Positions 43,413 through 46,400 of a stretch of 64,000 nucleotides of DNA are shown in pieces. The DNA comes from Tubulanus polymorphus. Taxonomy: Eukaryota > Nemertea > Palaeonemertea > Tubulaniformes > Tubulanidae. The translations under genes and the position numbers were made by a program. The stretch's first letter is position 1. Every line of letters starts with the position of its first letter. Where the stretch lies: assembly GCF_964204645.1 (NCBI RefSeq), contig NC_134025.1:4655001-4719000 (forward strand), given 5' to 3'. A model generated the notes under the pieces. That model saw nothing but the letters and a program-made list of their open reading frames with translations. It searched no databases and had not been told where the DNA came from.

Positions 43413-46400
43413 CTAATCTAGAGGCTCGTTTAACAACGTATTCTCGTAATTTGGACATTTAGTATGTGGGATACAAACATTATTATGTTCCACTAGATCT
43501 TTCGGGCACTGACAGCCTGGTTGACAAGGTCCATTGCATTTCTTTGACAACAGACTGTCGCATGTCCTGCGACACGGTGGACCACACGTGTCAAAATATC
43601 CTCCCACGGCACATTTAGTCGCTGAAAAAGAAATAGTATCTAATGAGAATTTCAAGAAATTTAATCTAGTCTAAACAATGTTGCCAGGTCATTGAAATGT
43701 TTGATACACAAATTCTGCACTTTACAGGTTCGAATATTTGTTATGGAATCTTTCTCATTTACATACAATAAAGATATGAATGATAATTAACTCACATCCG
43801 CACAATCTTGGAGTTCTCCAGTTCGATACGGACAGACCTTCAGAAAGACAAGTCCTCTCAAATGCATGAATGGCCTCGCATGAACATACGTGTTTCTTTG
43901 GGCAGTCGCATACATCAATAACGCATGATCTGTAACAAAAAAAAAAACATGCAAATGAAAAGATAATCATCCTTATGTTCGATTCCTCGAAACAATATTA
44001 AACAATCTTTTGATATTTCCCGAACTTGCGTTTAGACAGAGATGAATCTATCGCGTGTTTTAGAAACCTACTTGTAATACGGTTTCACATCTAGCTGTTG
44101 TCGACAATCTTTGAAAGCTGGTCCGTGGAGAATACTGCATTCGTGATGGGCAAGAAGTTTTGACGAGAACGAATTCTTACACGGAGATTGCTTTTTCTTG
44201 GACCTTTTATCACAAGAGCGCTCGTCACCTATTCTCCAAGATTCACCGAACGCGTTGGCGTCTGTGTAAAGTTGCTTGTTTTTGCCGGTAAAATCGTCTG
44301 ATTTATCGCCGTTGAAATTTCCACACAACCCACAAAGATAGTTCTTGTAGCTCACCGGAACGCTCACCTCCAGGTAACTATCACCGTCCCATATTACTTT
44401 TATCCCCGTTACTAATGTTACAACTACGAAATTGCCTTTACTTTCGATTGCCAAAAGATCTCGAATTTCGTGTGGAAGTTTCACGCGTTTTTTGTCGACT
44501 CGTACCTTAAGTTTCGGTCTCAACATCACCCGCACTCCGTGAAATAGAACAGTGGCTTGTTTAGTCCACGCGTACGTCGCTGAACGACGGGCGTGGTTTT
44601 TCACTCGTATCTGAAATGTTTTGTCGTAACAGGTGCGTGTTAGAACGTATCGACAAACTCCTTGAAAGTTATAGATTTTCCCGTCGAAAGTTCTATAATG
44701 GGGATCCCCAAAAACAGTGCATATCGAATTTCCTGAAATTATTTTCAAAAAGAACTGTGATTACGTTAACATTTTTCATTCATTACGGCCACTTCGAAGG
44801 GTAGGCTTACTTTCGACGCATCGCGGACAACATTCCCCTGGTATCATCTTTAACTCGAAGTTACGAGGACATTTGTATTTCTGACACTGGATCATGCTAC
44901 AGCTCATAACTCCGTTGTTACAATTGCACTCGTAACACAGACCACGACTCCATCTTTCCCCGTGCTGAAAAAGGATCGGCGTTGAATGTTCACACGAAAT
45001 GTATTTCCCGTGTTAAATTTAGCGCGTCGGCCAAGCCCATTTGGCACCGAAAGGTAAGCCATAAGTCTGGCGTACAGGCCAAATTTCGCCCGGGTCAAAG
45101 AATAAAAAAAAACTAATTGAAATTCCTAATATATTTTCGTACGCTCATCCGGTGCGGTATTTTGTTTCTGGTGGTGGCGATTTCATACCTTGTACGATTT
45201 CCCGTTGTTCCTACATTTCTTTCTTGGTTTACACCGATTACAGCAAACACCAGCAGTAACGATCACATCTTTAACGTGGCAGTCTAAAACTGGACATGTC
45301 TTTCGTTCGCATATAACGGTGCCTTCCTGAACATATATATATATATATAAAGTATGAAGTCGTGAAGCAATCTAGAAGTTATGAATTTTATGATATTTGT
45401 GTATGACCGCAGTTATGAAGCGCTTTTCCGAGAGATATGATACGTACATTGAGTCCGTGATTCAAATGTATTCCGTTATTCAAACTAATTTTTACTTAAT
45501 TCATCAGTAGCAATCACGACATTTACTTTGTTAAACATTTACACGCGAATCTACTGATTATACAAATTATCTTATGTTTTATAGGACGATTCTGTAGTAT
45601 TATTGTATTATATACGCATTTCATCTAGTTGAAAATCTTAATGCTGTTAAGGGCCCTCCTCATCCACTTAATGGCGACTTGTCTCGGGTCAAACGACTCG
45701 AACAGACAAACATACTACAAATCAAAATCCAACGGCAGACACTTCGTTACCTCGTTAAGAATGAAGAATTAAAAAGAAAAAGAAATTTATTTCACTGGAT
45801 TATATTTTCACGTGTATCTGCTAAGGTTAGATGACAGAACTATTTAATTGTATTACACGGGCATGGTGAACGGAAGCATACGCAATGACGCCATTTACCC
45901 CAAATAGAAGGCACCCGTTTGACTGTAGCTTGTAAAACGGCTGATCTGTCTTCATTCTCTTCACTTTCCTCTGACATCACGTCAGACACCCAAACATTCA
46001 TAATCAAACATATCAGCATTAACAAACATAAAGCCCTCATTTTTCCTACAAAGAAGGAAGATAATATGGCCGATCGTGTAATCAACGGTGTTGAGGCAAA
46101 TAGCATCGTATTGACTCTATCTATTTAGAATTTGAAAATGCATTCACATCAAACTAATAATTAATAACGGTACTATAATAACGATGTTTTAGAATGATTC
46201 ACTTCATACAATACAGCTAAACTATATTTCAGAGAACTTACCCGATGTTATCGGTGCGTTTATTCGCTGAAGAAGGAATAATCTTCGCTGTGTTTCGGCC
46301 GGTCTATTTGTATTTCACGTTTGTTTCACCGCGTCTTAAAACTCAATAACTCAACGAGAATGAAGCTTTCGGAAATATCACCAATCGGATAGTACCTCGC

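Follow-up and report, generated by a model that had tools for sequence, protein, structure and literature searches.

A signal peptide, a propiece, a convertase site and a cationic tail with two disulfides together form a layout that is common to host-defence peptides, neuropeptides and other secreted ligands. Protegrin-1, a beta-hairpin peptide, carries its cysteines at positions 6, 8, 13 and 15 and pairs them as 6-15 and 8-13 (PMC4472440). Marine worms have a known class of beta-hairpin peptides, the BRICHOS antimicrobial peptides (PMC6780910), whose annelid representatives, arenicin, alvinellacin, nicomicin and capitellacin, are cationic hairpins held by one or two disulfides (PMC6780910, PMC6265681). 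In the bryozoan Bugula neritina, precursors of neuropeptides and peptide hormones have been recognised by features of this kind, namely a signal, dibasic processing and, in some, disulfides (PMC4990251).

Here we describe an open reading frame (ORF) in a 64,000-nt stretch of DNA, the whole of which is referred to as the window. We consider it probable, at roughly 0.6, that this ORF belongs to a small independent gene for a secreted peptide, nested in sense orientation in an intron of a BMPER-like gene.

Results

The host is a BMPER/crossveinless-2-like gene on the minus strand, of which the VWC half-domain exons span 48759-45186 and the VWD exon 44760-44071 (Pfam VWD, 9.9e-39). One of its introns, the first base of which is 46865, divides the fourth VWC domain into halves, and within this intron lies, in sense to the host, an ORF of 66 codons (46040-45843, closed by a TAG at 45842-45840; Table 1). 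The ATG is internal to a longer 88-aa/94-codon open frame, the upstream part of which falls within the proposed 5' UTR intron. In translation the ORF reads, in order, as a signal-like start, an acidic propiece, a KR site and a 24-residue tail, just as the first-pass annotation had described it. The tail that cleavage at KR would release contains two Lys, two Arg and no acidic residue (+4), a Trp, three prolines and four Cys in the pattern CxC-x4-CxC (CVC...CPC, with FRSP between the two pairs); it occurs once per precursor and lacks a C-terminal amidation Gly. By the -3,-1 rule, signal cleavage would be placed at VMS/EE.

Table 1. Features of the host intron and of the putative nested gene (window coordinates; a slash marks the splice junction)
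Feature	Position	Strand	Basis
Host intron, phase 0, ~1.5 kb, splitting the fourth VWC domain	45328..46865	-	Donor CAG/GTAAAA, acceptor TTCAG/GAAGGC near 45327
Putative exon 1 of the nested gene, 5' UTR	46242..46363	-	ATG-free leader, motif scan, donor CGG/GTAAGT at its end
Possible 25-nt exon, with a second strong acceptor TATTCCTTCTTCAG/C and the donor of the 5' UTR exon	46242..46266	-	Acceptor score 10.13; 0.084/kb in simulated sequence
Putative 5' UTR intron, 196 nt	46046..46241	-	Donor and acceptor scores
Putative exon 2, coding and terminal, with an approximate 3' end	45770..46045	-	Acceptor at 46045, AATAAA followed by T-rich sequence
Signal-peptide-like segment, aa 1-23	45972..46040	-	Translation; signal judged by hydrophobicity only
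Acidic propiece (17 residues) and KR processing site	45915..45971	-	Translation; KR at 45920-45915
Predicted mature peptide, 24 aa, +4, CxC-x4-CxC	45843..45914	-	Translation; single copy in the genome
AATAAA poly(A) signal	45786..45791	-	Sequence; ~50 nt past the stop, T-rich stretch next

The signals around the ORF were also as first annotated: near-consensus splice sites would make 46242 the final base of exon 1 and 46045 the first base of exon 2 and would give the gene a 5' UTR intron of its own, and the AATAAA is present at 45791-45786, some 50 bases past the stop. The intron would open at 46241 (CGG/GTAAGT) and close with the acceptor TTCCTTCTTTGTAG/G, which stands 5 bases ahead of the ATG. 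This donor and acceptor are the best in the host intron and rank fourth and third, respectively, among all those of the window's minus strand; in simulated sequence sites as strong occur at 0.031 per kb (donor) and 0.013 per kb (acceptor), as scored with a generic animal matrix that was set by hand rather than trained on the source species. Four ATGs lie within the putative intron and all would be lost on splicing, and the leader from 46400 to 46242 contains none against 3.0 expected. The 5' end of the transcript can only be guessed at; we place it at 46363, where there is an Inr-like TCATTC, with an inverted CCAAT at 46385 and no TATA box.

The acceptor at 46266 would provide for a different transcript, an alternative 3' end of BMPER in which the 25-nt exon (46266-46242) would link the host exon ending at 46866 to the exon at 46045. 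BMPER would then be cut within VWC4 and would continue into a hydrophobic tail, possibly a membrane anchor, with a Cys-rich end. The ORF shares the strand of the host, this acceptor is strong, and in translation the joint through the 25-nt exon is in frame with the ORF and meets no stop, although luck alone gives such continuity odds of about 1 in 5. Because an isoform of this kind would halve a VWC domain and would leave the well-placed ATG, the acidic propiece and the KR site unexplained, we rank it below the nested gene and regard it as improbable; its hydrophobic run, of about 16 residues, is also short for a membrane anchor. Direct splicing from 46866 to 46045 is ruled out as an in-frame extension of BMPER, as it reads ...CQEK-stop and thus ends after two residues.

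A further reading is that the intron is geneless and that a signal-like stretch, a KR and four Cys have been aligned by accident beside cryptic splice sites. The coding statistics of the ORF lean this way, as open frames this long arise often by chance in the window, length being not significant at this base composition, and its codon usage is uninformative to slightly noncoding-like and no better than that of noncoding ORFs. At 66 codons, however, the codon-usage test barely separates the classes (with leave-one-out training, scores this low are also obtained by 12.5% of coding chunks and by 19% of noncoding windows). The layout was compared with 245 Mb of sequence simulated by an order-4 Markov model that was trained on the noncoding part of the window; in it signal-like ORFs arose at 89 per Mb, those with four or more Cys among their last 30 residues at 1.4 per Mb, and those with a dibasic site and a tail of at least four Cys at 0.18 per Mb; with an acidic propiece and a basic tail added, the full architecture arose once in the 245 Mb. 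These figures should be read in the light of criteria that were set after the ORF had been seen, and the looser rates (0.01 to 0.09 expected per window) are therefore the honest ones. For the loose signal-like class the Markov null is sound: in 200 kb of the real genome, taken from 20 places, such ORFs were found at 150 per Mb forward, a figure which takes in real genes, and at 75 per Mb reversed. A second four-Cys example was found neither in these 200 kb, forward or reversed, nor in the reversed window. Chance is thus a poor explanation of the layout and the splice sites taken together, particularly as so rare an acceptor stands directly ahead of the ATG and the leader is free of ATG, and we hold it to be unlikely overall.

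The DNA of the ORF occurs once in the 267.8-Mb genome, which rules out an origin as a transposon or repeat. Searches for a paralogue in the source genome, with the whole and with the mature peptide as queries, returned only the ORF itself; the peptide has no match in Pfam, NCBIfam or the PDB, nor a relative in the viral and prokaryotic collections, absences which weigh towards an accidental frame. Absence from viral and prokaryotic collections is expected of an animal gene. A search for RNA families over 40000-52000 gave none, and a single-sequence AF2 model of the peptide is of low confidence (pLDDT 62) and speaks neither for nor against a CVC/CPC hairpin.

The Cys spacing was also sought genome-wide as a DNA pattern, which proved useless, as the search was swamped by CTG triplet repeats. 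CTG/CAG arrays are very abundant throughout this genome, the four-Cys codon pattern giving about 9,600 and 8,700 matches against about 1,750 for the reversed control, and the matches listed were mostly CTG repeats. As regards other repeats, contig 1 starts with a GTCAGTCGGGGTCAGTCGGAGTC-type satellite and finishes with another repeat; a long TTAGGG or TTAGG array was found at neither end.

Several other genes were observed in passing. A single-exon precursor at window positions 1795-2619 (plus strand) is neurotrophin-like (Pfam NGF, 6.7e-17), with a basic proregion and neurotrophin-3 as its best PDB match; these features mark it as a true neurotrophin, here in the genome of an invertebrate. 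A neuroligin-like protein of the carboxylesterase family lies at 51829-53340 (minus strand) and continues to 51305; its nucleophile elbow reads GNAAG in place of GESAG, so that the protein is probably non-catalytic, and a likely transmembrane segment follows. Elsewhere in the genome an insulin-like peptide ORF has the lophotrochozoan CECC A-chain motif and is about 48% identical over 33 residues to BnILP-E of Bugula neritina. The neurotrophin and insulin genes fit a source among the lophotrochozoans, perhaps a cheilostome bryozoan. They told against an insect, as did a search for an R&R cuticle domain, which found none in a run that had no control. The assembly has 12 contigs of chromosome size, C13 measuring only 0.24 Mb; a probable fission of a single chromosome is reported in Cryptosula pallasiana (PMC13326412), which we read as giving 12.

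Discussion

The first-pass annotation took this ORF for a nested gene encoding a secreted prepropeptide. This is still the best-supported reading, the architecture of the ORF being in accord with independent signals from the splice sites, the leader and the poly(A) site, but the in-frame BMPER isoform had been overlooked. Taken together, the splice signals, the ATG-free leader, the AATAAA and the uniqueness of the DNA suggest that the exon is likely to be real. Very little weight falls to any explanation other than a secreted-peptide gene, the BMPER isoform or chance.

If the nested gene is real, its transcript would start near 46360, and with the 196-nt intron spliced out, the first AUG would open the 66-residue prepropeptide, which the signal peptide would direct to the secretory pathway. 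Cleavage after KR42 by a protease of the furin/prohormone-convertase type would then leave behind the acidic propiece, which would be able to neutralise the basic tail, and would release a 24-residue peptide of charge +4 that carries two disulfides. On the model of protegrin, we presume these to pair as C1-C4 and C2-C3 around a 4-residue FRSP turn. Transcription, secretion, cleavage and disulfide pairing are all inferred here.

What such a peptide would do is a matter for guesswork. The ORF presents the sequence features of secreted cationic antimicrobial peptide precursors, with a signal (by hydrophobicity only), an acidic propiece, a dibasic site and a cationic Cys-rich tail, and a membrane-active antimicrobial role is our guess at the likeliest single function, although a tentative one that falls well short of even odds. 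A role as a secreted signalling ligand comes close to it in likelihood. The same gene model would serve equally well for a neuropeptide, hormone or other ligand, a doubtful assignment which is a sub-case of the secreted-peptide gene rather than an addition to it, since a signal, a propiece, KR and a disulfide peptide are equally the layout of neuropeptide precursors. However, there is only the single peptide copy, the amidation Gly is absent from the C-terminus, and the pairing of a cationic tail that contains a Trp with an acidic propiece to balance it is somewhat better suited to antimicrobials.

The nested peptide gene is at present an unvalidated gene prediction. Were it real, it would encode an orphan secreted cationic peptide in an animal group with few described peptide defences, and one in which the Cys spacing of protegrin had been reached independently. 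Its nesting in BMPER, a BMP regulator, raises the question of shared or interfering expression, and the peptide is short enough for direct synthesis and assay.

Of the known systems, the lophotrochozoan neuropeptide and peptide hormone precursors of the Bugula neritina set share with the candidate the signal peptide, the dibasic processing and, in some, the disulfides, and its Cys pattern is absent among the precursor families described in the sections of that report drawn on here (PMC4990251). A macin scaffold has no Pfam match in the peptide, which has four Cys only, and a macin search of the genome came back empty, in a run that had no positive control. The annelid BRICHOS antimicrobial peptides are lophotrochozoan, as the candidate probably is; they are likewise cationic, and their precursors likewise have an acidic proregion and end in the peptide (PMC6780910, PMC6265681), but the candidate differs in its Cys spacing; moreover, the 66 aa give no Pfam match to a BRICHOS domain, for which a 17-residue propiece leaves no room, and on this absence the identity was rejected.

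The closest likeness is to protegrin-1, the pig cathelicidin beta-hairpin peptide. The CxC-x4-CxC pattern had at first been thought to match no named family, which is wrong as regards the spacing, as this is exactly that of protegrin-1 (PMC4472440). The identity is one of sequence reading, the AF2 model of the candidate being of low confidence, and the two peptides are also alike in being short, cationic and, in the case of the candidate by prediction, cut from a longer secreted precursor. Beyond the Cys spacing, however, there is no sequence likeness: protegrin-1 is Arg-rich whereas the candidate is +4, which has prolines beside its second Cys pair; three prolines in the tail are unusual for a protegrin-like hairpin and weaken the analogy. 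In place of the cathelin-like proregion of the cathelicidins, the candidate has its 17-residue acidic propiece, which has no Pfam match. To our knowledge the protegrin family is confined to vertebrates. Lacking a cathelin proregion and any other likeness, the candidate, on its sequence, should not be taken for a protegrin. It may instead represent a new lineage-specific antimicrobial family, a lophotrochozoan one that came by convergence to the double-CxC spacing of protegrin and whose gene is nested in a BMPER intron, although as a whole this placing is rather unlikely.
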